Shown piece after piece: positions 4,753-62,288 of a DNA stretch of 64,000 nucleotides (its first letter is position 1; every line of letters starts with the position of its first letter). The stretch comes from Catonia carolina (Eukaryota; Arthropoda; Insecta; Hemiptera; Achilidae): positions 27,352,672-27,416,671 of the forward strand of contig JAQMRL010000003.1 in the NCBI GenBank assembly GCA_035578175.1, in the 5' to 3' direction. The notes under the pieces are model-generated. The model worked only from the letters and a program-made list of their open reading frames with translations. It did no database searches and was not told where the DNA came from. The translations under genes and the position numbers were made by a program.

Positions 4753-7700
4753 TTTTTTTTTTGTCATCAGTCTCTCGACTGGTTTGATGCAGTTCTCCAA
4801 CCTGTTCTATCTTGCGCAAGTCGTTTCATATCTACATACCTGTAACACCCTACATCTTTTGTAATTTGCTTTACATATTCTAATCTTTGCCTCCCTCTAC
4901 AATTTACTCCCTCAATGTTACCCTCCATTATTGATAGCCCAATACCTGGATGTCTTAGGATATGCCCCACTAGCCTATCCCTTCTTTTGGTAAGATGCTT
5001 CCATATACTTCTTTTTTCATCCACTCGCCTAAGAACCTCTAAATTACTTATTTTGTCCACCCACCTAATCTTTAACATTTTCCTATAACACCACATTTCA
5101 AAAGCTTCTATCCTCTTCCGTTCTACAGCCCCTATCACCCACGTTTCACTTCCGTATAATGCTACACTCCAAACATAATGTTTTAAGAAATTTTTCCTAA
5201 TCTGTAAATCAATGTTTGTAGTCAGTAAGCTGTTTTTCATTTCAAAGGCTTTTCTAGCTTGAGCAATTCTACTCTTGATATCACTCGTGCTTCTACCATC
5301 CTTTGTTATTTTACTCCCTAGATAGCAGAATTCCCCAACTTCCTGTATGTTTTCGTTGCCTACTTTTAAATTTCCCATCTCTTCTAAACCACTCTTGCTG
5401 CTGCACAACACTTTCGTTTTGTTCTTATTAATTTTCATGAAGTAATCCTTCCTCAAGATCTCATCCATTCCATTTAAGGCATCCTCTAGTTCATTCTTTG
5501 CCTCGGCTAATACTACTATATCATCGGCGAATCTCAACATTTTTATTGTTTCTCCTTGAATTTTTATTCCTACGTCAAATTTCTCCTTCACTTCATTTAT
5601 AGCCTCTTCTATATACAAGTTAAAAAGTAGTGGTGACAAAGAACAACCTTGTCGTACACCTTTTCTTACAGCAGCCTCTTTTTCGTACCCCTCGATTCTC
5701 AAAACAGCCGTTTGATTCTTATACAGACTGTAGATAACTTTCCTTTCTTTGTATTTAATTCCTAGCCTTTTCAAAGTTTTAAACATTTTACTCCAGTCCA
5801 GATTGTCAAATGCTTTCTCTAAATCTACAAATGCCATAAAAGTAGTTTTATTTTTCTGTATCCTTTTCTCAATAATCAGTCTCAGAGCCAATATTGCATC
5901 TCGAGTTCCCATTCTCCTTCTAAATCCAAATTGGTCATCGTCCAATACTTCTTCTACTCGGTGTTCTATTCTCCTGTATATAATTCTTGTCAGTATCTTA
6001 GATGCATGGCATGTTAGGCTGATGGTTCTGTAATGTTCACACTTCTCCGCTCCTGACTTTTTTGGTATTGGAATCATAATATTTTTTTTAAAGTCCGATG
6101 GTACCTCTCCACTCTCATACATTTTGCACACAAGTTTGTATAATTTGTTTTGAGCAACTTTGCCACATCGTAATAATAATTCCGATGGTATGTTATCTAT
6201 TCCTGGTGTCTTATTCATATTCATATCCTTAAGTGCCCGATCGAATTCTTCTCGTAGTATAGGGTCCCCTTTTTGATCTTCTTCAACATCAGTTTCTTGT
6301 TCTATCGCATCATATTCTAATTCTTTTCCCATGTAGAGTTGATTTACGTATTCCTTCCATCTTTCAGCTCTCTCTTGGCCATTCAACAATGGTTTACCAC
6401 CTGCGCTTTGTAAATTAACAGCTTTCATCTTTCGTTCTCCAAAGTTTTCCCTTATTTTTCTATAAGCTGCGTCCACTTTACCAACTGCCATTTTACTTTC
6501 AATGTCCGTACATTTCATCCACTCTTCCTTCGCTTTCTTACACCTTTTGTTTATGGTATTTCTCAAGTAGTAATATTGCCTTTTACCTCTCTCGTCCTTT
6601 GCGTTTTTATATTTTCTTCGCTCATCCATCAGTTCTAAAATATCATTAGTAATCCACGGTTTCCTACCTCTTCTTTTAGTATGTCCTAACCATTCTTCCG
6701 CTGCTTTCACTACCACCTCCTTGAAGTTTATCCACTCCTCCTCTACATTTCCTGTGTCATTACCTCTTTCTTCTATCCCTTTTTGAATACTCTCCTGGAA
6801 ACCTACCTGGTTGTCTTGTTCTCTTAGTTTGTCTACATCCCACCTAGCATTTCCCTGTCCCTTCTTCAGTTTTTTAAGTTTAAGCCTGCTCTCCATTACT
6901 ACTAAGTTATGATCACTCCCTATGTCTGCACCTGGATAGGCTTTACAATTCATAATCTGGTTTCTGAATCTTTGTCTAACCATTATGTAATCTATTTGGT
7001 ATCTTCCCTTGTCACCTGGCATCATCCAAGTGTATAACCTCCTTTTGTGATTCTTAAAAAGTGTATTGCCTATCACTAAATTATATTTGGAGCAGAAATC
7101 TACCAGCCGACTCCCTCTGTCATTTCTCTTCCCTAGACCATATTCTCCGACTATCTTTCCTTCTTTTCCTTCTCCAACTACTGCATTCCAGTCTCCCATA
7201 ACTATCAAATTTTCATCACCCTTGACATATTTTATTACTTCATCTAATTCCTCATATACTTGTTCTATTTCTTCCTCTCTGTGTGAAGACGTAGGCATGT
7301 AGACCTGCACTATAGTGGTAGACTTTGGTTTCGTATCTACTCTAACCATGATAATCCTATCGCTACACTGCTTATAGTAAGTCACTCTTTGTCCAATTTT
7401 TTTATTCATTACTAGACCCACTCCGCCCTGCCCTCCGATGGCTTTAGTGTTAATAACCCTATAATCCCCGGACCAAAAGTCTTGATCATCATCCCAGCGT
7501 ACCTCACCAATGCCTACAATATCTAACTTCAACCTATCCATTTCCCTTTTTAAATTCTCTAACCTACCAGTTTGTTTTAAACTCCTAACATTCCATGTTC
7601 CAACTCGCAGAATTTCAGAAACTTTTATTTTTTTGATGAAGTCCCCTCTGATAGTCCTCGCCCGGAGATCCGAATGGAGGACTAGTTTATCTCCGGAATG

Positions 7701-8110
7701 TTTTACCAGAGAGGACGCCATCATAAATTTTCATATTTTGAAGTTCTCGAAGTTCTTGAAGATCTGCATATACTAAGTAAGCCTAACCAGAATCATACAT
7801 GAAGGAGTTTCCTTACGATAATTCTAGTCAGACAGAAAAAGCTGTAGTTTACTGTTGCTTTCAGCTTTTTGATTGGCAGACTGAGTGCCCCAAGCCACCG
7901 TCTGCCAGGGTGGAATGGGCAGCCCTTCCAGTTCCGTTCACCATGAGCCGGTTATCGTGCTGATGAGCGGTCACATGGTTACTAACAGGCCACACAACGT
8001 GAATGTATGGATAGGACACTAGCCTTCTATCCCGGCTGGTTCCCTTAAGCCTTTTGTAAAAGGAATTAAGGGGTCTCCTTCCAGTTGACGACAGAAGCCC
8101 TTTATAGCCC
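4753..8110 (-). mobile_element. full-length RTE-like LINE retrotransposon
   Basis: This is a complete non-LTR retrotransposon of about 3.36 kb on the minus strand. It has a 5' region of about 386 nt (8110-7725), one long ORF (4767-7724), and an almost absent 3' UTR: the stop codon is followed within a few bases by a run of 11 A. An 11-bp direct repeat (ACTTTAAGAAT) flanks both ends, as expected from target-primed reverse transcription. Single-ORF organisation, endonuclease plus RT and a tiny 3' end fit the RTE clade; the clade name is inference. An intact ORF, both ends and a perfect TSD point to a young copy that may be active. Confidence 0.85.
4767..7724 (-). CDS. endonuclease-reverse transcriptase of an RTE-like LINE
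   Basis: The 985-codon ORF starts at an ATG pair (MMASS). The product nicks target DNA and copies the element's RNA at the nick. Residues 40-275 form an apurinic/apyrimidinic-type endonuclease: GTWNVRSL (42-49), GEVRW (73-77), GDWN (177-180), QIDYI (243-247) and SDHNLV (270-275). The RT domain follows at about 500-800: FVDLEKAFD (632-640), RQGCSLSPLLF (691-701) and the catalytic FADD (732-735). The C-terminal part carries LYGSETW and the GHILRH region seen in related LINE proteins. No stop or frameshift interrupts it and the visible catalytic residues are present. Similar proteins are sometimes mislabelled as craniofacial development protein 2. Confidence 0.9.
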   Translation of the reverse strand: MMASSLVKHSGDKLVLHSDLRARTIRGDFIKKIKVSEILRVGTWNVRSLKQTGRLENLKREMDRLKLDIVGIGEVRWDDDQDFWSGDYRVINTKAIGGQGGVGLVMNKKIGQRVTYYKQCSDRIIMVRVDTKPKSTTIVQVYMPTSSHREEEIEQVYEELDEVIKYVKGDENLIVMGDWNAVVGEGKEGKIVGEYGLGKRNDRGSRLVDFCSKYNLVIGNTLFKNHKRRLYTWMMPGDKGRYQIDYIMVRQRFRNQIMNCKAYPGADIGSDHNLVVMESRLKLKKLKKGQGNARWDVDKLREQDNQVGFQESIQKGIEERGNDTGNVEEEWINFKEVVVKAAEEWLGHTKRRGRKPWITNDILELMDERRKYKNAKDERGKRQYYYLRNTINKRCKKAKEEWMKCTDIESKMAVGKVDAAYRKIRENFGERKMKAVNLQSAGGKPLLNGQERAERWKEYVNQLYMGKELEYDAIEQETDVEEDQKGDPILREEFDRALKDMNMNKTPGIDNIPSELLLRCGKVAQNKLYKLVCKMYESGEVPSDFKKNIMIPIPKKSGAEKCEHYRTISLTCHASKILTRIIYRRIEHRVEEVLDDDQFGFRRRMGTRDAILALRLIIEKRIQKNKTTFMAFVDLEKAFDNLDWSKMFKTLKRLGIKYKERKVIYSLYKNQTAVLRIEGYEKEAAVRKGVRQGCSLSPLLFNLYIEEAINEVKEKFDVGIKIQGETIKMLRFADDIVVLAEAKNELEDALNGMDEILRKDYFMKINKNKTKVLCSSKSGLEEMGNLKVGNENIQEVGEFCYLGSKITKDGRSTSDIKSRIAQARKAFEMKNSLLTTNIDLQIRKNFLKHYVWSVALYGSETWVIGAVERKRIEAFEMWCYRKMLKIRWVDKISNLEVLRRVDEKRSIWKHLTKRRDRLVGHILRHPGIGLSIMEGNIEGVNCRGRQRLEYVKQITKDVGCYRYVDMKRLAQDRTGWRTASNQSRD

Positions 8111-8740: not shown

Positions 8741-9044
8741 ACAATTTAATATAACTTGTATTTTTTGTGTGTTTGTTACACAGTAACACTGCGTAGTCTC
8801 TCCATTTTTTTTTTTTTCAGATGTAGAACGTCGTAATGTGATTTTGTAAAAATCTGTCCTTCGCATGTTGGCCTACTGCTATTGTACTTAACTAATACAG
8901 GACCTAATTAGATTACTGCAATATAATATGTAAATTCGTTACAAAAATAAAGAAAATATCAAGCAAAGTACTTAAAAAATCAGGTGTAAAACACTTACAT
9001 GACTTTCACTTGCCAATGCAAATAATGAACCATAAAACCTATGT

Positions 9045-9560
9045 TTAATCATGAGTGAACGACGGAAAATGAAAATCAACCACTGGAGAACTTAAAAATA
9101 CAGAAAATCACTAATTGACGCTAAACTAAGTGTTGTAAAAAAAGTGTTTAAAATAACAGTTGTAGGTTTTTTACCGTCCTCCAACTTTTATTTTATACTT
9201 TGTCATAAATGCATACTAAGGCCGCAAGCTTTAAAAAAATGCACTTTTTACAGATTTTCATGAAAAAACAGAAAACCACTTAATCGCTGCTAACCTATTT
9301 TTTTGTAAGAGTTGTACAAAAACATGTTTGAAAGAAAAGTTGTAGGGTTTTTAATGCTCTACAACTGATTATATGCACTTTTGCTCTAAAATGCATATTA
9401 AGGCAAAAAAACCATTTTTCTACGAGAGAAGTCTTCCCAAGAGTTTTGGCAGACTTGGGGCTTACCCTATCTTGTAGATCATAAAAAATGTAGCAAATAA
9501 GGCGATTTAAAAAAAATCGTAGGAGCCGTTAGGAGAAAACGTTTTTACGTTTATTTATGA
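9045..9560 (-). repeat. diverged inverted copy of the ~1-kb dispersed repeat (see 37764)
   Basis: Read on the minus strand it matches 38100-38615. Shared features include alternating ACAACTTTT/GTTGTAGAG blocks, a CTACAAGATAGGGTA-like stretch (plus-strand CCCTATCTTGTAG at 9465-9477), and the end CACTCATGATTAA. Both terminal parts of the element are missing. No long ORF is present. Confidence 0.6.
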
Positions 9561-10478: not shown

Positions 10479-10487
10479 CAGAATTTC
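10479..10487 (+). repeat. left 9-bp target-site duplication of the foldback element
   Basis: CAGAATTTC abuts the left terminus ACGTCTGTGA and is repeated exactly at 18898-18906 next to the right terminus. Confidence 0.8.
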
Positions 10488-10549
10488 ACGTCTGTGAAGT
10501 TGGCCCCACCCATACAAAAATTTGAAAAAAAAATTAGTGCATTCGATTG

Positions 10550-11690
10550 TTCTACGTTTGTTCCGGATTGTTCCGCAAAAATTTTCGTTTGTTCCGCTCA
10601 AATAAGCGAGAAAATCGAGAAAAACCGTGGGTGGGGCTAACTTCACGATGGCCCCCCCCATTTAACTTTTTCAACTTTTTTTTGCATAGATCGATAGATC
10701 TTCGTTTGTTCCGGATTGTTCCGCAAAAATTTTCGTTTGTTCCGCTCAAACAAGCGAGAAAATCGAGGAAAACTGGGTGGGGCTAACTTCACGCTGGCCC
10801 CCCCCACTCAACTTTTCCAACTTTTTTTTACATAGATCGATAGATCTTCGTTTGTTCCGGATTGTTCCACAAAAATTTTCGTTTGTTCCGCTCAAATAAG
10901 CGAGAAAATCGAGGAAAACTGCGGCGAGCTAGCCCCCCCCACTCAACTTTTTGAACTTTTTTTTACATGGATCGATAGGTCTTCGTTTGTTCCGGATTGT
11001 TCCGCAAAAATTTTCGTTCGTTCTGCTCAAATAAGCGAGAAAATCGAGGAAAACTGCTGGGGGATAGCGTGAAGTTAGCCCCACCCACTCAACTTTTTGA
11101 ACTTTTTTTTACACGGATCGATAGATCTTCGTTTGTTCCGGATTGTTCCGCAAAAATTTTCGTTTGTTCCGCTCAAATAGGCGAGAAAACCGAGGAAAAC
11201 TGCGGCGAGCTAGCGTGAAGTTAGCCCCACCCACTCAACTTTTTGAACTTTTTTTTACATGGATCGATAGATCTTCGTTTGTTCCGGATTGTTCCACAAA
11301 AATTTTCGTTTGTTCCGCTCAAATAAGCGAGAAAATCGAGGAAAACTGCTGGGGGATAGCGTGAAGTTAGCCCCACCCACTCAACTTTTTGAACTTTTTT
11401 TTACATGGATCGATAGATCTTCGTTTGTTCCGGATTGTTCCGCAAAAATTTTCGTTTGTTCCGCTCAAATAAGCGAGAAAATCGAGGAAAACTGCTGGGG
11501 GATAGCGTGAAGTTAGCCCCACCCACTCAACTTTTTGAACTTTTTTTTACATGGATCGATAGATCTTCGTTTGTTCCGGATTGTTCCGCAAAAATTTTCG
11601 TTTGTTCCGCTCAAATAGGCGAGAAAATCGAGGAAAACTTTGTAGTGGTGGGGGTAAACAAGCGCGTTTAATATATTTAACATTGTTTTT
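10550..11690 (+). repeat. tandem array of ~146-bp units in the left arm
   Basis: The motif TTCCGGATTGTTCCGC recurs at about 10561, 10709, 10855, 10990, 11136, 11282, 11428 and 11574. The steps are 148, 146, 135 and then 146 bp. Each unit carries several GTTCCG words, ATCGATAGAT, a T tract and a CCACCCACTCAACTTTTT block. A ninth, decayed unit lies near 11700-11760. Short ORFs recur once per unit, but 146 is not a multiple of three and each is closed within the next unit, so I do not call them genes. Confidence 0.85.
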
Positions 11691-12042
11691 GTCTATATCG
11701 ATAGCTTTTAAATTGTTGTGGGTTGTTCCGCATAAAGTTTCCTTTGTTCCGCTCAAATAATATTTAAATTGATACCGTATTATTCCGAAAACAAGCCGTA
11801 CCCGAATTTAAGCCGAATCGGAAAAATACTATAAAACTAGGAAAAAAATTAAAGTACAGTACTTGTATGTTTTTGAAAATATTCTATTTTATAAGAAACG
11901 ATTACCGTAGTCTACAAACAATATACTTACTACTTAATTAGCATTTAGAAGTTTTTGTTTATTTTTTGTTGAATGCTGAACACAAGATTCATCTACATGA
12001 TAGGTATTTTCTTCCGGCTTCTTTGTTGGATGTCTTTTCCGC

Positions 12043-12249
12043 GTAGTTAATTTGATTTTTCTGACTTCTGAAATTACTGCTAATGCAGACGGTGAAGGAT
12101 GAAATGATTTTTTGTAAAGTATGAAAATATGCCGTGCCTGAATAAGATTCGAACCCAAGACCGCATGATGAGAGGCGAGCAAGTTACCAACTACGCCAAT
12201 ACGGCCGGCATAGTAGTAGTAGTAGGTAGCATAGTAGTAGTTAATTTGA
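12043..12249 (-). repeat. SINE-A copy with 13-bp TSD, left arm
   Basis: A tRNA-derived SINE in minus orientation (12056-12236) with box-A-like TAGTTGGTAACTTGC and box-B-like GGTTCGAATC. It is flanked by the 13-bp repeat GTAGTTAATTTGA at 12043-12055 and 12237-12249. An identical insertion lies at the mirror position in the right arm. Confidence 0.75.
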
Positions 12250-12445
12250 AATTAGTATCGTAAGCCCTGCGCTGATTTTTAGGTATTTATATAGACGAAG
12301 TACCCTTAACCTACATAAAATCACTCATAGCGATTTATAAAATACAACAAAAAAAAAATGATCGGATAAAAAAAACAAAATGAAATATAAGAAAACTGCT
12401 ATCAAACTTTATACTGTATCTCCAAACTGATCAAAATGACTATAC

Positions 12446-14267
12446 TGAATACTCACATTAACGGAAAACCGGCTAAAATCTGAGTATTTTTTTGCGTAAA
12501 TTGCTGTATCTCCGACTAATTTCTACATAAAATAATCTAAACAAAACCAATCAACGCAGAAAAGAACAGGTTTTAATTTGGTGTAGCGATCATTTTTTTC
12601 CGTTTGTTTGTTTTTAGATAAATCTCTTAAAACACAACGGACTTCTTCCATAGTACGTACTGTAAAACACTACAAATTGATAGAGGCGTGCCATAGCGCA
12701 TGCCTCGTTTCTTCTGCTCAAATACGCGAGAAATTTAAGGATAACTTTGGAGTGGAGGGTATAATCCAGGGCGTTTAATATTTTAAACTTTTTTTTCCTA
12801 TATCGATAGCCTTTCATTAGTTTCGGAAGGTTTCACAAGAAGTTCCGTTTGTTCCGCCTAAATAAGCGGGAAAATCAAGGAAAACTTTGGAGTGGAGGGG
12901 ATAAGCCAGCGCGTTTAGTAGTTTTAACATTTTTCGGCCTATATCGATATCCCTTCAATAGTTCCCGAATAGTCCGCATAAATTTTCAATACTTAGAATA
13001 CGAAGGATTAACTGAATGTCATCATTTTTACTTTTTACTGCATGTACTTGCTGAACGAAAAGGATTGCGATAAATAATGTACAGTAATTTTTTTGTTTAA
13101 ACATGATATTATGCCTATTGTAACAGCGAATGCAATGAGTAATAATAAGAAAACATATAAAAATGTATTGGAAAGGTAATGAAATCTTTTACGATAGTCT
13201 GGTAGAACAGGAACAAGCATCAGGCAGTGTGATAACGTAAACAAATTACTAAAGGTTATTTATTGTTTATGGAATCAAAAGGTTGGTTTATACCAAGTTT
13301 GAAAAAAGAAATCAAAGCGGCATACGATGATTTATATGTAGGGAGGTCGACAGAATGACGACTTTTCAACATTGGCCTTCTGAATACAATGCGTTTAGAA
13401 AAATATAGTTAGTCATAACAATCTAATCCAGACTTCATTATTCGCAGCACCGGTTCCTTCCCGGATAGTGTTTAGCCCAAATAGAAAATCTTCTGAGAGA
13501 AATGAGAATTTTTGATTTATAAAAATATCTATAGTTAACATAAATCATTTACACTGATATAATTAACTTGGCGTGATTTCTCGTAAATTCAGTTTTTACA
13601 TATACGACCATTAGTTTATAATAAGATTACCAGTCTGTAGTTTGAGTGATTCTTCTGACAATAAGATATTTAGTTTTATTTTATGTTAAACGGGATATTT
13701 ATACTCTTTTAGATTAAATTAGTTAAGGAAGTTACTTTAAAAATAGTTCACCTGAACGATGAAAAACTGAAAGAATATTCCGTATGAAAATGTAAATGAA
13801 AAAATATATAGTAAATGTTTAGGCCTAATAGGTATGTGTTTGGTTAATTTATTACGGTTAGTTATTTATTGTTTTAAATCATCACCGATTCTAGTTTTCA
13901 CGCCGCACAATGAGATATTTGATTGATTTAGGCGGCCAAAATTATTTTTGCAGTTTAACATCGTTTTGGACTTTCGAACCGGGCTGATCCGAAATCCGAC
14001 CGACTGGGATAGTCAGTCAGACGATAGATTTTAGCTCTAAATAGTTAAGTAACACCGGTTGTGCAACAAGCTTGGTGTAGTGACCAGTTGTTGGCCTGTT
14101 AAATGAACTGAAATCGCTCTTCAATCTTTCTTGAGTTTCACATATTATACTCGAGATAAAATGTTCACACAAAAATAAACAAACTTTGCGACCAAATTGC
14201 GCCTATGTTTAAAATATGATTTCTCAATACGATACAAACGAGTTAAGGGTAAAAAATATAGAGTTGA
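12446..14267. other. foldback spacer, left part, with decayed arm units at 12690-13000
   Basis: Around 12690-13000 (plus orientation) two degenerate copies of the arm unit can be seen: GTTTGTTCCGCCTAAATAAGCG near 12847, TATCGATA words at 12800 and 12945, and GGAGTGGAGGG blocks. The rest to 14267 shows no coding or repeat signal that I recognise. Confidence 0.5.
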
Positions 14268-14391
14268 CTAGCTTATCCCCACCACTCCAAATGGTTCCTT
14301 GATTACCTCGCTTATTTGAGCGGAACAAACGAAATTTTTTGCGGAACAATCCACAACTATTAAAGGGCTATCGATGCAGACAAAACAAATA
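14268..14391 (-). repeat. decayed arm unit, left half, split by a MITE
   Basis: Minus-orientation copy of the arm unit (CTTATTTGAGCGGAACAAAC, GGAACAATCC, CTATCGATG). It stops at the TTAA at 14392. Its other half resumes at 15290 after the inserted element. Confidence 0.7.
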
Positions 14392-15293
14392 TTAACCCTT
14401 TTACTAACCGGGAAGCCCAATATCACCCATTCGTCACCATCGTTTTTTAAACTCAAATATCTCCGCAACTATTCATTATATTCTAACGGGATTGGTTTTA
14501 TTAGATAGACTTTTTTCTTCTTTCATTTGATGTATCTTGCATATTTGTATGATGAAAATTGACGACGTGGTGTTACGTGAAAAAAATGTATATTTTTTGA
14601 ACAGCCAGTACTAAAATTTGAACGTTTTTATCTATAACTTTTCAACAAAAAACCGTATTTGTTTGGGAATAACATCATCATCACTACCCGTCTCGTCTAC
14701 CCTTCGGTTAAAACTTACAATTAGCGTCAAAATAAACAATAACATATTTTGATTTATGCTATCCTGTTTAGAAAAGGATAATACACAAAGCAACAGGCGC
14801 AAAAGAGATAGAACTTGCATAGAAAACGAGTAAATAAAAATTGAAAAGACACCACATTATTTCTAGGTGATTTTTTGTCATTTTTTTCATCCAGCACGTT
14901 ACATTGTTGAACAAAAATTGTGATATCTTTTGAATGCGTCTATCAATTATTTGCAATATCTAAACGTTGTTTTTTTTGCAATGAATTGCTTTATTTATCT
15001 ATATATAGCTAAACATATTTTTTTGTATATTTTACTGATTTTGTGACACTTTTTCGTACTAAAGTGATATTACTAAAAGAAAATATTTTTTCTTAAATTT
15101 CAATTTTTATTCTGGTCGTAAATGAAAACGGTAAAAATTGGTTTAAACGTTGTTCTAATAAAAAAATTTTTAAAAATAAACGGTATTTTTTTGAAATTTT
15201 TAGAAATGAAACTGAATGAAATAAAAGAGTTTTTATTAGGCGTAAAATGACAATCCGCGTGATCGTTAAAAATCTCCGTTCTCGTCGGGTTAA
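14392..15293. mobile_element. non-autonomous piggyBac-like element (TTAA insertion)
   Basis: About 0.9 kb bounded by TTAA at 14392-14395 and 15290-15293, with outer ends TTAACCC and GGGTTAA. The outside flanks join into one arm unit. The intact unit in the right arm (17690-17720) reads ACAATGTTAAATATATTAAACGCGC-like sequence with a single TTAA; here the same site is split with TTAA on both sides. That gives an internal empty-site comparison for a TTAA-specific insertion. No transposase is encoded, so piggyBac-type mobilisation in trans is inferred. Confidence 0.7.
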
Positions 15294-15680
15294 AATAATA
15301 AACGCGCTTCTTTACCACCACCACTCCAAAGCTTTCCTTAATTTCTCGCTTATTTGAGCGGAACAAACGAAATTTTTTGTGGAACAATCCGGAACAAACG
15401 AAGATCTATCGATCCATGTGAAAAAAATGTGGAAAAGTTGAGTGGGTAGGGCTAACTTCACGCTATCCCCCGGCAGTTTTTCTCAATTTTCTCGCCTATT
15501 TGAGAGCGGAACAAACGAAAATTTTTGCGGAGCAATCCGGAACAAACGTAAAACAATCGAATGCACTAATTTTTTTTTAAATTTTTGTATGGGTGGGGCC
15601 AACTTCACAGACGTCTTCAATAGTTGTGGGTTGTTCCGCATAAAGTTTCCTTTGTTCCGCTCAAATTTCTATGAAATTTA
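15294..15680 (-). repeat. decayed arm units with an internal foldback terminus
   Basis: It begins with the second half of the unit split by the MITE. Two more minus-orientation units follow, then a complete outer terminus reading GGCCAACTTCACAGACGT at 15607-15624, the same as the element's right end. Directly after it a plus-orientation unit fragment starts (CTTCAATAGTTGTGGG). This looks like the relic right end of an older foldback copy nested in the spacer; I found no matching left end. Confidence 0.6.
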
Positions 15681-16270
15681 ATATTATAATTTCATTAATA
15701 GTGAAGTTGTATTTTAAAGTTTTATTGTTGTTTAGTGTAATTTAACAAGTATGTTGTTCAATGTGAGGGCTCGGTTAAGAGTAAAACTGCTAATTTGAAC
15801 AAGATTGTAATACTGTATAACACTAAGGGTCTATTATTAAACACGATATTATAATTATAGTCGAAATTAATTGGGTTTATTAGTTTTGAGATCATACTTG
15901 GCAAAATCATTCTTGGCAAGTGACTGAAACTGAAACTGACAAAAGATAATTTAGAAGGTAGTGGGAAATGCCACCAGATCTTACGAAGATAAATGACGGG
16001 GCTAGGTTTCTTCTAGGAAACATTACGGATGGGTAGTTGGAAGTAAAATTTAGTTTCAGAATCAGAAACACGAGCGGGACTAAATACCAATATACATCAA
16101 TATTATAAATACATATCATACATCTATACATCAATATCATACATCAATAATCACATCAACTTATATTATAGAACAATCACCAGATTTTCCATAATACCGT
16201 ATTGTTCCGAATACAAGCCGCAGGTTTTTCTTAAAAATCGGTTCCATAATTTGACCTGCGGCTTGCATTC
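15681..16270. other. foldback spacer, right-central part
   Basis: No gene is visible. A fragment at about 16190-16220 (ACCGTATTGTTCCGAATACAAGC) resembles arm sequence near 11773-11805, another sign of older duplicated arm material. Confidence 0.4.
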
Positions 16271-16296
16271 ACGCTTTAATAATAGTATTAATAATA

Positions 16297-16328
<32 letters not shown>

Positions 16329-16930
16329 TAATTATTTATTTATTCCCATGATGTTACGCATTACAAAAATAGAAATTTCCGTAATACACAATTTCTTACA
16401 GTAAACTACTATCCTGTTATAGGCTACCCTAGAGGAGGTGGAAATCATCCCATCCAACTATGGACAAAACCATGTACTAGGATGGACTGGAAATTTTTAA
16501 ATAAATATCAAAAAAATCTGAAGTATTAACTATTAGCAATAGCATTCAATACCTACTATATTTACTTACTACAGTAACTTAACTAACTTAATAAGGATAA
16601 TTATACCTGAAATTAATTATTACATTTAAAAATTAAAAACAATAAAAGAAATGTATTCTATTTCATTTTCCTCCTGTCTCTTTATTTATATCTACATTTG
16701 AATATTGCTGACCATTTTGCTATTTTCTCTCTATCTGTTTGGCTATCCATTTTTTTAGTTTTTTATAAAATTTTAAACTTGTTAAATTCTTTAAATGGTT
16801 CGGGAGCAGGTTATATATTTTGGGTGCCAAGCACTCAAAATACTCAACGTACTCAAATTAATGATTTCATATTAAGCATAAGTAGCTACGAAGTGAGAGA
16901 TACACGCAGTCTTATACGCACACTTCTTAC
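16270..16930 (-). pseudogene. CR1/Jockey-like LINE 3' end (RT C-terminus plus tail)
   Basis: The minus strand encodes EYFECLAPKIYNLLPNHLKN followed by LTSLKFYKKLKKWIAKQ at about 16870-16740, the typical 'LYN-LP--IKN' C-terminus of CR1/Jockey-type RTs. A 3' UTR follows down to a (TAA)n tract at 16275-16325, a common LINE tail. It is 5' truncated close to where the right arm begins (16940). A related tail lies at 62670-62770. Confidence 0.65.
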
Positions 16931-17135
16931 GTAGTGCATGTATAGTCATTTTGATCAGTTTGGAGATACAGTATAAAGTTTGGTAGCAGTTTTCTTATAT
17001 TTCATTTTGTTTTTTTTATCCGATCATTTGTTTTTTGTTGTATTTTATAAATCGCTATGAGTGATTTTATGTAGGTTAAGGGTACTTCGTCTATATAAAT
17101 ACCTAAAAATCAGCGCAGGGCTTACGATACTAATT

Positions 17136-17342
17136 TCAAATTAACTACTACTATGCTACCTACTACTACTACTATGCCGGCCGTATTGGCGTAGTTGGTA
17201 ACTTGCTCGCCTCTCATCATGCGGTCTTGGGTTCGAATCTTATTCAGGCACGGCATATTTTCATACTTTACAAAAAATCATTTCATCCTTCACCGTCTGC
17301 ATTAGCAGTAATTTCAGAAGTCAGAAAAATCAAATTAACTAC
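17136..17342 (+). repeat. SINE-A copy with 13-bp TSD, right arm
   Basis: The SINE lies at 17149-17329, flanked by TCAAATTAACTAC at 17136-17148 and 17330-17342. The head is tRNA-like (GGCGTAGTTGGTAACTTG, GGTTCGAATC). It is the mirror image of the insertion at 12056-12236, TSD included. Confidence 0.75.
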
Positions 17343-17689
17343 GCGGAAAAGACATCCAACAAAGAAGCCGGAAGAAAATACCTATCATGTAGATGAATCT
17401 TGTGTTCAGCATTCAACAAAAAATAAACAAAAACTTCTAAATGCTAATTAAGTAGTAAGTATATTGTTTGTAGACTACGGTAATCGTTTCTTATAAAATA
17501 GAATATTTTCAAAAACATACAAGTACTGTACTTTAATTTTTTTCCTAGTTTTATAGTATTTTTCCGATTCGGCTTAAATTCGGGTACGGCTTGTTTTCGG
17601 AATAATACGGTATCAATTTAAATATTATTTGAGCGGAACAAAGGAAACTTTATGCGGAACAACCCACAACAATTTAAAAGCTATCGATA

Positions 17690-18840
17690 TAGACAAAAAC
17701 AATGTTAAATATATTAAACGCGCTTGTTTACCCCCACCACTACAAAGTTTTCCTCGATTTTCTCGCCTATTTGAGCGGAACAAACGAAAATTTTTGCGGA
17801 ACAATCCGGAACAAACGAAGATCTATCGATCCATGTAAAAAAAAGTTCAAAAAGTTGAGTGGGTGGGGCTAACTTCACGCTATCCCCCAGCAGTTTTCCT
17901 CGATTTTCTCGCTTATTTGAGCGGAACAAACGAAAATTTTTGTGGAACAATCCGGAACAAACGAAGATCTATCGATCCATGTAAAAAAAAGTTCAAAAAG
18001 TTGAGTGGGTGGGGCTAACTTCACGCTATCCCCCAGCAGTTTTCCTCGATTTTCTCGCTTATTTGAGCGGAACAAACGAAAATTTTTGTGGAACAATCCG
18101 GAACAAACGAAGATCTATCGATCCATGTAAAAAAAAGTTCAAAAAGTTGAGTGGGTGGGGCTAACTTCACGCTGGCTCGCCGCAGTTTTCCTCGGTTTTC
18201 TCGCCTATTTGAGCGGAACAAACGAAAATTTTTGCGGAACAATCCGGAACAAACGAAGATCTATCGATCCGTGTAAAAAAAAGTTCAAAAAGTTGAGTGG
18301 GTGGGGCTAACTTCACGCTATCCCCCAGCAGTTTTCCTCGATTTTCTCGCTTATTTGAGCAGAACGAACGAAAATTTTTGCGGAACAATCCGGAACAAAC
18401 GAAGACCTATCGATCCATGTAAAAAAAAGTTCAAAAAGTTGAGTGGGGGGGGCTAGCTCGCCGCAGTTTTCCTCGATTTTCTCGCTTATTTGAGCGGAAC
18501 AAACGAAAATTTTTGTGGAACAATCCGGAACAAACGAAGATCTATCGATCTATGTAAAAAAAAGTTGGAAAAGTTGAGTGGGGGGGGCCAGCGTGAAGTT
18601 AGCCCCACCCAGTTTTCCTCGATTTTCTCGCTTGTTTGAGCGGAACAAACGAAAATTTTTGCGGAACAATCCGGAACAAACGAAGATCTATCGATCTATG
18701 CAAAAAAAAGTTGAAAAAGTTAAATGGGGGGGGCCATCGTGAAGTTAGCCCCACCCACGGTTTTTCTCGATTTTCTCGCTTATTTGAGCGGAACAAACGA
18801 AAATTTTTGCGGAACAATCCGGAACAAACGTAGAACAATC
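17690..18840 (-). repeat. tandem array of ~146-bp units in the right arm
   Basis: Mirror image of the left-arm array, with the same unit count, spacing and irregular 135-bp step. A few substitutions distinguish the two, for example GCGAGCTAGC versus GCGAGCCAGC and a CGC/CAC difference in one unit. Confidence 0.85.
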
Positions 18841-18897
18841 GAATGCACTAATTTTTTTTTCAAATTTTTGTATGGGTGGGGCCAACTTCACAGACGT

Positions 18898-18906
18898 CAG
18901 AATTTC
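18898..18906 (+). repeat. right 9-bp target-site duplication of the foldback element
   Basis: Exact copy of CAGAATTTC at 10479-10487, directly after the terminus ACAGACGT. Confidence 0.8.
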
Positions 18907-19075: not shown

Positions 19076-19810
19076 TTAGCTGTCGTCATCAGAAGCACCT
19101 CCAATGCAAGTCTCACAGGTAATAATTTGTTGGCTGTGATTTTTGCAGACATTTTTGCCGCATGTACCACATGTAACACCCGTTTTTGAATTTTTATGAC
19201 TACCGCACAAAAAACAAGCTTTCTTCTGAGAAACAGCTTTCTGAGGCTCGCGGTATTTCGATAGGAAACACGATATATCTTTGGGAAGACACCATAGTTG
19301 AGCTCTAATTTTTAAATTTAGCTCCATCATGCTCATTGCGAGATTGGTGAGATAGTTTCTTCTCGCAAAAATTTTTTCTCTGTTATTGGCTAGGAAGATT
19401 TTGAACGAATTTATTCCAGCTATGTCAAGTTCTCGGAAAAATACTACAAGCGGCCACCTTCTTGTTTTCCTCGCTGTTGAATACAACGAACACAGTTGAT
19501 CTACAGTGTCGACTCCACCTTTTGTCAAGTTATAGTCTAGGATTATTTCAGGTTTCTTACTGTCTGGATCCACCTCATTTAGATCATGCATCGTTGATAG
19601 TAGCAGTACTACTTTTTTTCTTTTTCGGGACGTAAGATACAAGTGTCTTGTCGTATTGAAATCCAAAAACCGTGGACCCAACTTCCCTTTATTTATAGAT
19701 TTATAAATAATAATTTTTTTTTTCAGTGTACCCAAGAATGTTAGCCCTTCTTGTAACAAATATTCCGCAGTAGTTCGTAGTAATATATCAACACACGTAT
19801 CACAAAATAA
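19076..19810 (-). pseudogene. piggyBac transposase, C-terminal part only
   Basis: Minus-strand ORF of 227 codons (19076-19759, with no real Met). Recognisable upstream sequence (LLRTTAEYLLQEGLTF) extends it to about 19805. It shows the piggyBac catalytic-core end: GTLKKK (10-15), EIILDYNLTKGGVDTVDQ (71-88) with the third catalytic Asp, RRWPLVVFF, and a C-terminal Cys/His-rich zinc-binding domain (CFLCG, CGTCGKNVCKNH, CETC) that binds terminal DNA in this family. The N-terminal two-thirds, including the first catalytic Asp, are missing, so the protein would be inactive. It sits directly right of the foldback element, which may have interrupted its 3' side. Confidence 0.8.
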
Positions 19811-21542: not shown

Positions 21543-21752
21543 AAGAATAGGCCTACATTGGCGCAGTTAGTAACGTGCTCGCCTCTCATCATGCGGTCCT
21601 GGGTTCGAATCCCACTCAGGCACGGCATATTTTCATACGTTACAAAAAATCATATCATCCTACATTGCATACAGATTCACCCCAACGTTGTCGCTAATGA
21701 CCGTTGCAGTTGATGCGACGTTAAATAAATTTAAAAAAAAAGAATAGGCCTA
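21543..21752 (+). repeat. SINE-A copy with 13-bp TSD
   Basis: The SINE (21556-21739) has a near-complete tRNA-like head (TTGGCGCAGTTAGTAACG; box B GGTTCGAATCC), the body CGGCATATTTTCATACGTTAC and an A-rich tail. It is flanked by AAGAATAGGCCTA at 21543-21555 and 21740-21752. Its 3' half (CTAATGACC..GTTGATGCGACG..TTAAATAAA) differs from the other SINE-A copies and matches the tail of SINE-C at 41270-41310, so it is a chimera or a subfamily with a swapped tail. Confidence 0.8.
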
Positions 21753-22757: not shown

Positions 22758-22885
22758 TACACTAAAAGATGCGGTCTTGGGTTCGAATCCCATTCAGGCA
22801 TGGCATTTTTTCATACGTTACAAAATATCATTTCATCCTTCACCGTCTGCATTAGCAGTAATTGCAGAACAGTCGGACGTTAAAC

Positions 22886-24883: not shown

Positions 24884-25420
24884 AACGCTTTTATTTAACT
24901 TACTCTTGGAAGCATCAAATCTTGCAACTTAAAATTTTAATACTTCTACCGTATCAATATGAATCCAACTTTGCACACTTGTTTATCTTCGATGACAATA
25001 CGCTGTGGAGGTGTTTGTAAAAAAAAATTTTTTAATTTTTAAATTTTATAACGCTTTTATAACGCTTTTAACGCTTTTAATTTAACTTACTCTTGGATCC
25101 ATCAAATCTTGCAACTTAAAATTTTAATACTTCTACCGTATCAATATGAATCAAACTTTGCACACTTGTTTATCTTCGATGACAATACGCTGTGGAGGTG
25201 TTTGTAAAAAAAAATTTTTTAATTTTTAAATTTTATAACGCTTTTATAACGCTTTTAACGCTTTTAATTTAACTTACTCTTGGATCCATCAAATCTTGCA
25301 ACTTAAAATTTTAATACTTCTACCGTATCAATATGAATCAAACTTTGCACACTTGTTTATCTTCGATGACAATACGCTGTGGAGGTGTTTGTAAAAAAAA
25401 TTTTTTAATTTAAAAAAAAA
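24884..25420 (+). repeat. 187-bp tandem repeat, three units
   Basis: TACTCTTGGA recurs at 24901, 25088 and 25275, an exact 187-bp step. Units share CACACTTGTTTATCTTCGAT and GCTGTGGAGGTGTTTG and are nearly identical. Each starts with AACGCTTTTA-TTTAAC, the same word that opens the palindrome to the right, so array and palindrome look like parts of one element. Confidence 0.85.
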
Positions 25421-25436
25421 TTAAAAAAAAGAAATT

Positions 25437-25987
25437 AAAAAACGCTTTTATTTAACAATTACTTAAAACAATTAACTAAAAAGAAAAAAAGAAAAAAAAT
25501 TTACAAAAAAATCACAGAAAAAAATTACAAAAAAATAAAAAAAAATAAAAAAAAAAAAATTTTAAGAAACGCTATTATTTAACAATTAATCAAAAAAATG
25601 AACTAAAAAGATAAAAATTAAAAAATTTACAAAAAAAAACATCACAGACATTACAGTTAAAAATAAAAGCGTGGCGCATTAATATATATAATATTTATTG
25701 TAAAATATTCGTTGTAAAATATTATATATATTAATGCGCCACGCTTTTATTTTTAACTGTAATGTCTGTGATTTTTTTTTTGTAAATTTTTTAATTTTTA
25801 TCATTTTAGTTCATTTTTTTTTTTGATTAATTGTTAAATAATAGCGTTTCTTAAAAATTTTTTTTTTTTTTGATTTTTTTGTAATTTTTTTTTCTGTGAT
25901 TTTTTGTAAATTTGTTTTGTAAATTTTTTTTCTTTTTTTCTTTTTAGTTAATTGTTTTAAGTAATTGTTAAATAAAAGCGTTTTTTA
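25437..25987. repeat. 550-bp palindrome (foldback MITE)
   Basis: Arms of about 260 bp (25437-25696 and 25715-25987) begin and end with AACGCTTTTATTTAACAATT and its complement and meet near 25705. The innermost 60 bp (AGCGTGGCGCATTAATATAT) pair almost perfectly. Outer parts are poly-A/T rich. Each arm holds two degenerate copies of an ACGCT-TTATTTAACAATTA block. Confidence 0.75.
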
Positions 25988-26101
25988 AATTTTTTTTTAA
26001 AATTTTTTTGTATAATATTATTTAGAAAGTAATTCTTATTCAATATAAAGGTTTTATCAATGAAGTAATTTTTCAGATTTTTCTAATATAAATGAGAATT
26101 A

Positions 26102-36077: not shown

Positions 36078-37763
36078 ACATTTAGAGGTTTTACTAAGTA
36101 GAACGAGAAGTGAAGTTGTTTACGACTGTCTTACTCAGTGAGTTGAAAAGTATGCTTATCAACCTATTGAGCCTTTGAAAAGCATCTACTTTCCACCTTT
36201 CAAATGACAACTTCATTCATCACAGGCATCATACAGTAAGAAACAGAACTATTTTTGAAGCCCTGGAGCTAGCAGATCGAGTGCAAATAATCTAACATCT
36301 CACCGGACTGTTATTGGCAAGTATAAACATTAGGAATTAAAAGAAAATGTAACTATGATATAAAGAACATTATGTATCAAAACAAATTTTAATCTTCCGT
36401 ATTTTTCGTGATTAAAATTCTAACACCAAATAATAAATACAATTTATTCATGAACGAAAAGAAGATTATCACTTTAAAAGCTTATACTTTGGAAATTCGT
36501 TTTCAACTTCTATAAATAGGCTACAAACAAAGTCAGTTAAATTATTTATTTATAAGTAAATTTTATAAAAACAAATCTTTACGCCTACCAGCGTAACTCC
36601 AATTTAAAAATCAACAGTAGTTGTTTTATAAGGTTAATTTTCAATGTGTTTATTATAAATCAAAAATTTAGTTATTATTGGCAGTTAAAAAATTAAAAGA
36701 TATGAAATTTGATCTGGTTAATTTATAATTTTGTTTGTACGGTAAATTTTACATTTTGAAACGTTTCAGTCTGTGGTATTGGTTACTCTTATCTAAAAGG
36801 TTAATTAATTTAAGGTTTTGATGGAAGAGGAAATGCAATTTAACTGAATGGTCCAATTTTAAATTTGTGAATCCAAAGAAAATATATGCAGAGGTAAAAA
36901 AACATTTTAGTGGTAGAGTAATATTTCTCAGTACACAGTCAACCAAACAACAGAGTTAATTTTAGTTGTTCATAAGTACGTAGAATTAACGTCAGAAATA
37001 TAAAGTAAGGGACCGCGCGATAATTAATATGAGAGAAGGAATAAGAGAGATTGTTTGTTTGTGTATTAGAAAGAGAAAGAATTAACTATTTTCCTTCTTT
37101 GTGTACCGTGGAAAATTGAAACAAACCTAGGATGTATTAAAATATTCTACGAAACACCCACATTTTGCATATGTTGCTTGCTTGTTACTTTTACTTACTT
37201 GTGAGATGTGTAGTGAGTGCCCCGCGGAGATCTCTTTGCTTCGTATGTAACTAGTATGTAAAATGCAGATTGTGTAAATTTTCCTATTTCGAAGACCATT
37301 TCATATAATACTCCAGCAAAAGCAACTACAGTAACAACACTGTTTATATTATTAGTCGTATATCTCAAGAAAAGTACTCTTTGTGTACCACTGGATGTAA
37401 TTTATTCAGTGCATTTACGTTTATTACTTTACGTTATTAATAAATAATAACTTCTAATTTATAACCTAAGAAAGTTTAAGTTATAAATTAATTTTTATTA
37501 TATTTTATTTAAAATTGTAACTTCTAGTATAACTATATTTACTAATTTTAGTTTTTATTAATTCTTTTTTATTTTAATTCTTATGTAGTGACGGGTGTAA
37601 GGCAAAAAAATAAATTATACAGTAGCATCAGGCTAGAAATATTTAAAGTGAGATAGTTAGATGAGACATGGTATTGTATGAAAAAGGTTTATTTATATGT
37701 GAATAGCATTAATATCTTGAAAGGTTGCAGTGGTGGTGCCGGCTCTTATTGTTATTTCTTATA
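36078..37763. other. unannotated AT-rich stretch
   Basis: No gene, repeat boundary or coding-like frame seen. Confidence 0.4.
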
Positions 37764-37922
37764 TTTTTACTTTCTCTTGCCTATATGAATATATAGGAAG
37801 GAAAGTATTGTTTTCATGTCGATTTTTCGAAATCGAGTTTTCACCGGATCTATACGTTTTCAGACCCCCTGAACCCAAAAAACATGTTTTTAACGATTGG
37901 TCTGTGTGTGTGTCTCTCTCTC

Positions 37923-37961
<39 letters not shown>

Positions 37962-38749
37962 GAACAGAATATCTCAAGAACGGAACATCGTACGAACTTG
38001 AAACTGGAAACTTAAATTACATACAACTACCGGACCCGACACGAACATTTTCATCAAAATCGGTCAACCGGAAGTAGTAGTTTATTCGTATAATTTTTCA
38101 CTTTTTTGCGATTTTCTCAAACACTGGTCCTACGATTTTTTTTTAAAATCGCCTGGTTTACTAAATTTTTAATTCTCTACAAGATAGGGTAGGCGCCATG
38201 TTTGCTAAAATTCTGCGTGAGGCTGTTTTTACGTAAAAATATTTTCTTTTTAAGATTGCGGCTTTAATATGCATTTTAGCGCAAAACGTTATATAATAAA
38301 AGTTGTAGAGAATTTAAAATTCTACAACTTTTATTTCAAAAATTTTTTTGTATAACGCTTAGTTTAGCGGTAATTTGCGATTTTCTGTTTTTTTCTCACG
38401 AAAACGTGTGAAAAATTGATTTTTTAAAGATTTCGGCCTTAGAATGCATTTTACGACAAAAGTGTATATAATTAATTTTATAGGAAATTAAAAGATGTAC
38501 AACTTTTATTTTAAGAATTTTTCTCTACAGAGCCTAGTTTAGAGAGAAAGAGTGATTTTCCGTATTTCTAAGCCAAACTGAGGTTGATTTTCATTTTGCG
38601 TCTTTCACTCATGATTAAAATTAGGTTATGTTTATTGAGGTTAGTTTTTTTGTTTATTTCTAATGTTTTATTACTAATATTAGGTTTATTGTTAATTATT
38701 TCTATTGGCAAGAGAAAGTTGTGTGAGTGTTTCACACCAGATTTTTTGT
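37764..38749 (+). mobile_element. ~1-kb dispersed non-coding element, copy 1
   Basis: Starts TTTTTACTTTCTCTTGCC and ends TCACACCAGATTTTTTGT. It matches 53305-54275 over its whole length, a short piece at 39291 and, inverted and diverged, 9045-9560. Near the ends lies a 13-bp inverted repeat (ACTTTCTCTTGCC at 37769-37781; GGCAAGAGAAAGT at 38707-38719), and a small hairpin GTGTGA..TCACAC closes the 3' end. A TG/TC microsatellite lies at 37903-37960. The interior alternates ACAACTTTT and GTTGTAGAG blocks. It has no ORF, so it is non-autonomous; the class is uncertain (TIR element or Helitron-like). Confidence 0.7.
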
Positions 38750-38842
38750 GTAGTTTATTTAAAGTCGCATGAACAGGTTGGTTATTAGCTACTACGTTGG
38801 GTTACGTAACTGTAAAATTAAGCTTTGAATTGTAAAAATTTT

Positions 38843-50861: not shown

Positions 50862-51110
50862 AAAAATACTGCCATACTCTACTCATACAAAGTAATGTCA
50901 TACTATAGGTACTGAAATTTCGGCATACTGTCATACTGTACTCTTACAAAGTAATGTCATACTATACTGAAATCTCGGCATACTGTCATACTGTACTCAT
51001 ACAAAGTAATGTCATACTATACTGAAATCTCGGCATACTGTCATACTGTACTCATACAAAGTAATGTCATACTATACTGAAATCTCGGCATACTGTCATA
51101 CTGTACTCAA
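50862..51110 (+). repeat. 55-bp tandem repeat, about 4.4 units
   Basis: TCTCGGCATACTGTCATACT recurs at 50973 and 51028 and CATACAAAGTAATGTCATAC in each unit, a 55-bp step. The last three units are almost identical; the first is diverged and carries a short insertion. Each unit itself contains several CATACT words. No gene overlaps it. Confidence 0.85.
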
Positions 51111-52655: not shown

Positions 52656-52830
52656 TTCTTTTTTTGGTTTAACGTCCAACTCTTCTGCAATTACTGCTAA
52701 TGCAGACGGTGAAGGATGAAATGATTTTTGTAACGTATGAAAATATGCCGTGCCTGAATGGGACTTGAACCCAAGACCGCATGATGAGAGGCGAGCACGT
52801 TAACAACTACGCCTATGCGGCCGACGTACC
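52656..52830 (-). repeat. SINE-A copy
   Basis: The minus strand starts GCCGCATAGGCGTAGTTGTT, has a box-B-like GGGTTCAAGTCCCATTCAGG, the body CACCGTCTGCATTAGCAGTA, and ends GGACGTTAAACC then a short A run. The most complete SINE-A body in the window. No convincing TSD was found. Confidence 0.75.
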
Positions 52831-53245: not shown

Positions 53246-53304
53246 ATAATTTTACGCAATGTCATTTTAAAAGTTTACTGAAATCTACAAATAATGTTTA
53301 TGAA

Positions 53305-54275
53305 TTTTTACTTTCTCTTGCCTATATGAATATATAGGAAGGAAAGTATTGTTTTCATGTCGATTTTTCGAAATCGAGTTTTCACCGGATCTATACGTTT
53401 TCAGACCCCCTGAACCCAAAAAACATGTTTTTAGCGATTGGTCTGTGTGTGTGTCTGTGTGGGTGTGTGTGTGTGTGTGTGTCTGTGTGTGAACAGAATA
53501 TCTCAAGAACGGAACATCGTACGAACTTGAAACTTGAAACTTAAGTTACATACCACTACCGGACGCGACACGAACATTTTCATCAAAATCGGTCAACCGG
53601 AAGTAGTAGTTTATTCGTATAATTTTTCAGTTTTTTGCGATTTTCTCAAAAACTGGTCCTACGATTTTTTTTAAAATCGCCTATTTAACTCAATTTTTTA
53701 TTCTCTACAAGATAGGGTAGGCGCCATTTTTGCTGAAATTCTCGGTGAGGCTGTTTTCACGTAAAAACGTTGTTTTTTTAAGATTACGGCTTTAATATAA
53801 ATTTTAGCGCAAAAACTTATATAATAAAAGTTGTAGAGAATTTAAAACCCTACAACTTTTGTTTCAAACATTTTTTTGTATAACGCTTAGTTTAGCGGTA
53901 ATTTGCGATTTTCTGTTTTTTTTCTCACGAAAACGTGAGAAAAATCGATTTTTTTAACATTTCGGTCTTAGTATGCATTTTACGACAAAAGTGTATATAA
54001 TAAAAGTTATAGAAAATTAAAAGATCTACAACTTTTGTTTAAAGCATTTTTCTCTACAGAGCCTAGTTTAGCGTGAAAGCGTGATTTTCCGTATTTTTAA
54101 GCCAAACTGAGTTCGATTGTCATTTTGCGTCATTCACTCATGATTAAAATAAGGTTATGTTTTTGAGGTTAGTTTTTGTTTATTTCTAATATTTTATTAA
54201 TAATGTTAGGTTTATTATTAATCATTTGCATTGGCAAGAGAAAGTTGTGTGAGTGTTTCACACCAGATTTTTTGT
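53305..54275 (+). mobile_element. ~1-kb dispersed non-coding element, copy 2
   Basis: Full-length partner of 37764-38749 with the same ends. The 13-bp inverted repeat lies at 53310-53322 and 54233-54245. The TG microsatellite at 53443-53490 differs in length from the other copy. Outside the shared region the flanks of the two copies differ, which defines the element's ends. No coding capacity. Confidence 0.75.
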
Positions 54276-54389
54276 TTAACATTTACTATTTTCTATTAAT
54301 CTAGGTTCTTAAGATAGTAAATATGGCACGCATTTTAAAACGTTCCAAACATTTTATTTTTACAGAATATTTAAGAAAAATCATGCTGG

Positions 54390-61247: not shown

Positions 61248-62288
61248 TGTCGCCTCCGGCTGTAGTAGCACAATCTGCAGAGCTGTCCTGCCGGAGTTGC
61301 AGAGCAGCCGGTGGAGTAATTCAAAAGGAGAATAAACGGTTGGGAAAGCCTTCGCCGCAACCTCAAAGAGGAGCAGCTGCTGGCAAGCAAAGAAAGGTCG
61401 TCATTACCGTGGCCTGAACGATTAGGAGCAGTCACCGACGCAGCGAACACCTTTTACCGCTACCTCCAAAGAAGAGCAGTCGCCGGTGAAGCGAAGCAGG
61501 GTCGTCTGAACCGCTCTCTAATCGAGTAGGGGCAGTCACCGACGCAGCGAGCATCTTTTACCGCTGCCTCAGAGAGGAGCAGTCGCCGGTGAAGCCAGGA
61601 GAATGAAGGGAGGTGTAAGGAGCAGAAAGAAAAGACTCAAAGATGAGCGGTAATTCTTCCGTATCGACCTTCGATAATGATTGAATCGATACTGCATGGT
61701 CACCTTCATCTATCGCATTCGCCGATACCCCACATACATCCTGCCACTGGCACACACACTGTGAGGTGTGACCGCTACGCTTACTATCGGCAGCAGATGC
61801 ATATAGGGTATCGGTGAATGCAATAGTTGAAGGTGACCAAGCAGTATCGATTCCATCACTATCGAAGGTCGATACGGAAGAATTGCCGCTCAACTTTGAG
61901 TCTTTTCTTTCTGCTCCTTACACTTCCCTTCCCTTTTCCTAGCTTCACCTGCGACTGCTCCTCTCTGAGGCAGTGGTAAAGGTGCTCGCTACGTCGGTAA
62001 CTGCCCCTATTCGATTAGGCAGCGGTACATACGACCCTGCTTCGCTTCACCGGTGACTGCTCTTTTCGTAGGCAGCGGTAAAAGGTGTTCGCTGCGACGG
62101 CGAATGTTCCTAATCGTTTATGCAACGGTAAAGATGACCTCCCATTTGCTTGCCAGCGGCTGCTCGTCTTTGAGGTAGCGGCGAAGGTTTCCCCAACCTT
62201 CTTGCTTTACTTTTGAACTACGCCGCCGGATTCCCGGCCGGTCCTATGACAGCTCTACAGATTGTGCTACTACAAGCTGGTGGTGACA
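61248..62288. mobile_element. 1-kb GC-rich palindromic foldback element
   Basis: Two arms of about 480 bp (61248-61729 and 61806-62288) face each other across a ~76-bp loop. Outer ends are TGTCGCCTCCGGCTGTAGTA and a near-complement (..CTACTACAAGCTGGTGGTGACA); the inner ends near GTATCGACCTTCGATA pair best. Each arm contains tandem sub-blocks with GAGCAGTC-CCGACGCAGCGA and TTTTACCGCTGCCTC words. The arms have diverged noticeably, more toward the outside. It is much richer in GC than its flanks. Long frames inside it arise from this composition and have no recognisable domain. A weak 6-bp candidate TSD (CTATTA at 61231 and 62293) lies outside. Confidence 0.75.

Follow-up and report, generated by a model that had tools for sequence, protein, structure and literature searches.

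A non-autonomous foldback transposon of Catonia carolina with a SINE-like insertion mirrored in both arms

The 64,000-nucleotide stretch of the Catonia carolina (Hemiptera, Achilidae) genome analysed here (contig JAQMRL010000003.1 of assembly GCA_035578175.1, positions 27,352,672 to 27,416,671 of the forward strand), hereafter the window, contains a non-autonomous foldback DNA transposon, which our analysis confirmed to be real. Its components are listed in Table 1. Both termini are exact (ACGTCTGTGA from position 10488 and TCACAGACGT up to 18897), and directly outside them lies a perfect 9-bp direct repeat, CAGAATTTC, the target-site duplication (TSD). With the ends set in this way, 9 bp was the only flanking repeat length that fitted among the lengths from 4 to 15 bp. 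The chance of two 9-mers matching, calculated from base composition, is 1.2e-5, and 47 of 2,000,000 pairs of 9-mers drawn at random from the rest of the window matched. The locus thus combines the long, tandemly repetitive inverted arms and the flanking TSD of a foldback element, and the length of the duplication falls within the 8-11 bp range of the Mutator superfamily (PMC6446971).

Table 1. Components of the foldback element and its target-site duplication (positions within the window)
Feature	Position	Strand	Remarks
Whole foldback element	10488..18897	.	8,410 bp
Target-site duplication, left copy, CAGAATTTC	10479..10487	+	
Target-site duplication, right copy, CAGAATTTC	18898..18906	+	
Left arm	10488..12445	+	1,958 bp; differs from right arm by 4 substitutions, without indels
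Right arm	16940..18897	-	1,958 bp
Tandem array, left arm	10543..11639	+	~146-bp units, 7.6 copies
Tandem array, right arm	17746..18842	-	~146-bp units, 7.6 copies
GTGAAGTTRGCCCCACCCA, inverted, at first unit boundary	10628..10646	-	also 10774-10792
GTGAAGTTRGCCCCACCCA, terminal orientation, at unit boundary	11069..11087	+	also from 11215, 11361 and 11507
SINE-like insertion, left arm	12056..12236	-	limits set by 13-bp direct repeats 12043-12055 and 12237-12249
SINE-like insertion, right arm, mirrored	17149..17329	+	13-bp repeats 17136-17148 and 17330-17342
Spacer	12446..16939	.	no Pfam family at E<=0.5, six frames
Older, diverged arm units in spacer	12705..12987	+	69-81% identical to arm stretches
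Older, diverged arm unit in spacer	14273..14395	-	80-91% identical to arm
Older right-end piece in spacer	15289..15614	-	complete second terminus TCACAGACGT at 15605-15614
Inner-type arm unit abutting second terminus	15616..15666	+	96% to arm positions 1221-1271

A letter-by-letter count revealed four substitutions and no indels in the 1,958 positions of the two arms (0.2% divergence, 99.8% identity); an inverted-repeat search, which rounds its values, shows the same arms as 100% complementary. Tandem Repeats Finder detected a period of 146 in each arm. Going inwards from the end, each arm begins with a terminal stretch, which is followed by about 7.6 units, a single divergent unit of inner type (near 11640-11760 in the left arm) and approximately 690 bp of non-tandem sequence. 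Unit anchors of the left arm are spaced 148, 146, 135, 146, 146, 146 and 146 bp apart, and seven of its units are 86-99% identical in pairwise comparisons (mean 92%, 21 pairs). Units within an arm therefore diverge far more than the arms do from each other, which indicates that equalisation acted on the whole arm and not on single units. A preliminary description of this DNA had already proposed exact termini with an exact 9-bp repeat outside both, arms of 1,958 bp aligning without net indel and tandem repeats of ~146 bp within them; the letter check of 10479-18906, the mismatch count and the repeat search bear out all of these points.

Near-identical inverted arms might also be generated by an assembly error or a long-read foldback artefact, since such read artefacts exist (PMC12870357), or by a plain segmental inverted duplication. 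A 4.5-kb spacer, sharp ends and an adjoining 9-bp direct repeat are not expected from events of this kind, and we regard such an origin as scarcely credible.

The six-frame Pfam search of the spacer gave no match to a Mutator-like element (MULE) transposase or to a PHD-finger DDE transposase, and neither this search nor a check of open frames found a transposase remnant there. As the longest stop-to-stop stretch in the whole element is 105 aa and no Pfam family was matched, this copy (10488-18897) is non-autonomous, in agreement with the absence of a transposase noted in the preliminary description. The spacer is a patchwork of arm pieces in both orientations. Within the older right-end piece, positions 15330-15614 are 87.5% identical (12.5% diverged) to arm positions 1-287, and the internal and outer right termini stop at an identical base. 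That this base is shared despite the divergence supports a true end of the family and activity in at least two rounds. The preliminary description had held that copies with different end points would speak against its interpretation; within the window, the internal right terminus ends at the same base. Directly after this terminus, beside the inner-type unit, stands CTTCAATAG; we infer that one family member inserted into a unit of another and then lost its left half. Two copies of CTTCAATAG (at 12953 and 30330) were considered as its 9-bp left partner and rejected, as neither abuts a left end and the former lies inside an uninterrupted unit. The innermost part of the spacer on the right (16277-16939) starts with a (TAA)n run and reaches the right arm's inner edge; it contains a minus-strand frame (16720-16857) which may resemble the C-terminal tail of the reverse transcriptase of a long interspersed element (LINE).

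Each arm carries, in mirrored position, an insertion resembling a short interspersed element (SINE), whose matched core in the left arm spans 12065-12207. The 13-bp repeat flanking the insertion, TCAAATTAACTAC, is identical in both arms, and its four copies are the sole occurrences of this string in the window (0.01 expected). Three related copies of the SINE-like repeat lie elsewhere in the window (21557-21664, 90.7%; 22769-22869, 93.1%; 52682-52823, 92.3% identity), and the other matches outside the element at E<=1e-5 are simple repeats only. The label SINE-like was chosen because one related copy ends in an A-run and because the repeat holds what we read as a tRNA-promoter-like GGTTCGAATC box. 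When it was compared with tRNA and Rfam models, no match reached the gathering score; the low matches (two and four) were far below it and none was a tRNA.

It is implausible that the repeat inserted twice, independently, at one and the same base. Very probably, therefore, one arm is a copy of the other, produced once the SINE-like repeat had landed. Of the four arm mismatches, two fall within 91 bp of the inner edge (chance 0.012 if mismatches are uniformly distributed, with a cut chosen after their positions had been seen), which gives a weak hint that they mark the edge of the copied tract. It is possible, if rather unlikely, that no repeated homogenisation took place and that the second arm, together with its SINE-like insertion, arose in a single recent inverted duplication of an element that had been one-armed or asymmetric until then. 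The presence of only four differences over 1,958 bp, the abrupt inner edge (12445/16940) and the clustering of mismatches beside this edge are all consistent with such an event, but the older arm pieces found in both orientations in the spacer suggest that earlier members of the family were already two-armed. The one copy analysed would fit a single inverted duplication as well as recurrent homogenisation, and an event before arrival at the locus as well as one after it.

The arms also retain traces of their growth. The 19-bp motif GTGAAGTTRGCCCCACCCA, which starts 6 bp inside the element end, recurs at six of the seven boundaries between anchored units. The element contains 15 copies of it (seven per arm, terminus included, and one at the internal terminus) and the rest of the window none. 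Given this recurrence of the terminal motif at unit boundaries, the arms look as if they had grown from the transposon's own end. In the two outermost units the motif is inverted, and when a 31-bp block is turned round, the match to a typical unit (over 60 bases) rises from 0.75 to 0.83 in one case and from 0.78 to 0.90 in the other. A variant of GTGAAGTTRGCCCCACCCA at 15449, within the older right-end piece, is in the ordinary orientation, and the inversions in the outermost units therefore look derived.

Another word, TTGTTCCG, is found 55 times in the element, where 0.16 copies would be expected, and not once in the rest of the window, for which the expectation is 1.04; each tandem unit holds two or three of these words. 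Since the tandem arm units of Galileo contain sites that the THAP domain of its transposase binds in vitro, in experiments that yielded no transposition (PMC3688188), the unit array may be viewed as a set of multiple putative transposase-binding sites.

The preliminary description compared the element to the FB transposons of Drosophila. Its account of a foldback-type, non-autonomous anatomy with a 9-bp TSD holds, whereas kinship with FB does not follow from it: foldback anatomy has arisen in several superfamilies, so that resemblance is no proof of kinship, and Rehavkus-1_TC of Tribolium fits at least as well in unit size, arrangement and TSD (PMC10218199, PMC6446971). FB elements share the foldback anatomy and the 9-bp TSD, but their units (~10-31 bp) are much shorter. 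We consider it improbable that the element is a true member of FB/NOF, or of an FB-like branch whose partner supplies a NOF-type transposase; inverted tandem-repeat arms and a 9-bp TSD would suit this assignment, but the units of Rehavkus-1_TC (164 bp) and Tetris (~220 bp) come closer in length to the 146 bp found here than the short FB repeats do.

Long or tandemly repetitive arms are known from several superfamilies, with Galileo being of the P type, and Tm1 and Muta1 of the Mutator type (PMC3573991, PMC3169594, PMC5225508). The nearest architecture that we found, compared by description and not by sequence, is that of Rehavkus-1_TC of Tribolium castaneum, which is 9.5 kb long and whose inverted termini contain a 164-bp satellite, mostly as five and eight monomers (PMC10218199). 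Members of the Rehavkus group possess 9-bp TSDs and a PHD finger; their terminal inverted repeats (TIRs) are listed as 26-400 bp long, with a minisatellite preceding the 3' TIR alone (PMC6446971). They are hosted by arthropods and annelids (PMC10218199, PMC6446971). The element described here resembles Rehavkus-1_TC in size (8.4 kb vs 9.5 kb), in its 9-bp TSD and in the tandem array of its termini, although the sources differ on whether the array occupies one or both ends in Rehavkus. It differs in having no PHD-finger transposase and in the length of its arms (1,958 bp vs TIRs of 26-400 bp).

About equally close in organisation, again by description, is Tetris of Drosophila virilis (PMC4079207). 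Both elements are non-autonomous, carry tandem units in inverted arms (TIR-220 in Tetris) and share sequence between unit and terminus (37 bp, ~80% in Tetris). The TSDs of Tetris are 8-10 bp long and its partner transposase is unknown (PMC4079207). Its unit is longer (~220 bp), and in that report it was found in D. virilis and D. americana only. Tm1 of Meloidogyne (PMC3169594) and Muta1 of Aedes (PMC5225508) both Mutator-type foldbacks, are similar in that they have composite inverted repeats with tandem motifs and commonly give rise to non-autonomous derivatives; their TSDs are mostly 9 bp (8-10 bp) and 8-9 bp, respectively. In contrast to the Catonia element, their units are only 13-15 bp (Tm1) and 12 bp (Muta1) long, the arms of Muta1 measure 145 bp, and the arm pairs of Tm1 are on average 93.15% identical (100% in 5 of 61 elements; PMC3169594), compared with 99.8% here. 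A 2026 survey of complete arthropod MULEs gives 1,527 bp as the longest TIR among those listed (PMC13359780), which is exceeded by the 1,958-bp arms of this element.

Galileo resembles the Catonia element in having long arms, with tandem units in some subfamilies, and has recruited inner sequence into its arms (PMC3573991, PMC3688188). Its arms are 98-100% identical within one copy, and 95.2% identical in the copy with the longest arms; the longest arms given in the portions available measure ~1.26 kb, and Galileo belongs to a different superfamily (PMC3573991, PMC3688188). A P-superfamily (Galileo-type) foldback element would account for long arms, some of which carry ~210-bp tandem repeats in Galileo (PMC3573991), but Galileo has been described, in the portions of these reports available, from Drosophila. 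The 9-bp duplication found here is also too long for this assignment, which we judge to be very improbable. The TSD is 7 bp in Galileo and 7-8 bp in the P superfamily.

Taken as a whole, the data make it probable that we are dealing with a non-autonomous foldback element which was mobilised in trans and whose arms were copied after the SINE-like insertion. The transposase would be supplied by a partner element that makes a 9-bp staggered cut, most likely one of the Mutator/Rehavkus group, and would bind the multiple sites offered by the unit array. The mirrored insertion strongly implies that one arm was copied onto the other, which would have left the arms near-identical; the route might have been break repair, or a switch of template from one inverted arm to the other. 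The patchwork spacer may represent the leftover of such repair, combined with nested insertion.

Several points weigh against this explanation. It is drawn from a single copy within a 64-kb window. The case for a Mutator/Rehavkus placement consists of TSD length and architecture, and one source describes the minisatellite of Rehavkus as preceding the 3' TIR only (PMC6446971), whereas the array here is two-armed. The step in which the array provides binding sites is proposed by analogy with Galileo. The left terminus ACGTCTGTGA occurs once in the window (at 10488), and the second right terminus is thus left with no matching left end. When DNA folding was computed for three unit boundaries, the hairpins were modest and only slightly better than those of shuffled sequence (z -1.3 to -1.8), which lends no strong support to a special structure. 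For the terminal stretch, 200 of 200 shuffles folded at least as well.

A broader proposal, which we put forward with considerable reserve and consider rather doubtful, is that this lineage periodically rewrites one whole arm from the other, mirroring any insertion, that its arms grew by iteration of their own end, and that spare terminus-like motifs are flipped by short inversions. If this were true, anything landing in one arm would become part of the mobile element. Arm copying is not new as an idea, and copying has been put forward as the way in which Galileo arms were extended (PMC3573991); the marker provided by the mirrored insertion is unusually clean. In the literature available, the upkeep of identity between foldback arms has been proposed and not demonstrated, and a third-party insertion mirrored together with its own target repeats constitutes a clean internal marker of arm-to-arm copying. 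Should there be copies in which a single arm carries the SINE-like repeat, they would directly reveal which way the copying went and how long the tract was. Foldback elements have also been implicated in chromosomal inversions and in the origin of satellite DNA (PMC4079207, PMC3688188).

The mirrored SINE-like repeat, the inverted boundary motifs, the internal right terminus and the older arm pieces of the spacer are observations additional to those of the preliminary description. The family is likely to be undescribed: four unit and end strings had no match in the literature, and the top-ranked results of topic searches gave no account of it (the literature covered did not include Repbase or the majority of subscription journals). 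In a collection of viral contigs, neither the unit core nor the terminal motif had a match, and a unit pattern had none in contigs of prokaryotic genomes, absences that are expected and say little.

The surroundings of the element are rich in other repeats. About 180 bp from its right end lies a C-terminal piece of a piggyBac-type transposase (19076-19768, minus strand). Of the 20 matches listed for it, the three with an organism name are from the arthropods Callosobruchus, Gonioctena and Araneus (41-47% identity), while those without a name reach 61%. The presence of a complete piggyBac around the insertion was considered and rejected, as only the C-terminal piece was found and the flanks contain no convincing inverted ends (best 20 matches). 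On the other side, the minus strand of 4767-7724 contains an open reading frame of 985 aa, specifying the endonuclease and reverse transcriptase of a non-LTR (long terminal repeat) retrotransposon. Among the best 120 of its 289 matches, the named ones come from Cacopsylla, Diaphorina, Macrosiphum and Uroleucon, all arthropods (41-50% identity), and those without an organism name reach 64-65%, with the best full-length match at 64%.

Other palindromic and tandem structures were also identified in the window. At 61248-62288 lies a second imperfect palindrome of ~1 kb, 83% identical to its own reverse complement. Its left arm contains an 82-bp direct repeat twice, at a spacing of 104 bp; this is another foldback-like element, around which no clear TSD was seen by eye. 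A palindrome of ~600 bp, A/T-rich and 89% identical to its own reverse complement, occupies 25411-26012, directly preceded (24884-25411) by 2.8 copies of a 187-bp tandem repeat (98%). Two ~1-kb repeats with 92% identity (37763-38752 and 53304-54278) each combine a TG run with a tandem unit of 175-176 bp that is present in 1.8-1.9 copies, and an inverted relative of this pair (74%) is located at 9036-9539. Finally, 4.4 copies of a 55-bp tandem repeat (95%) are present at 50866-51109.

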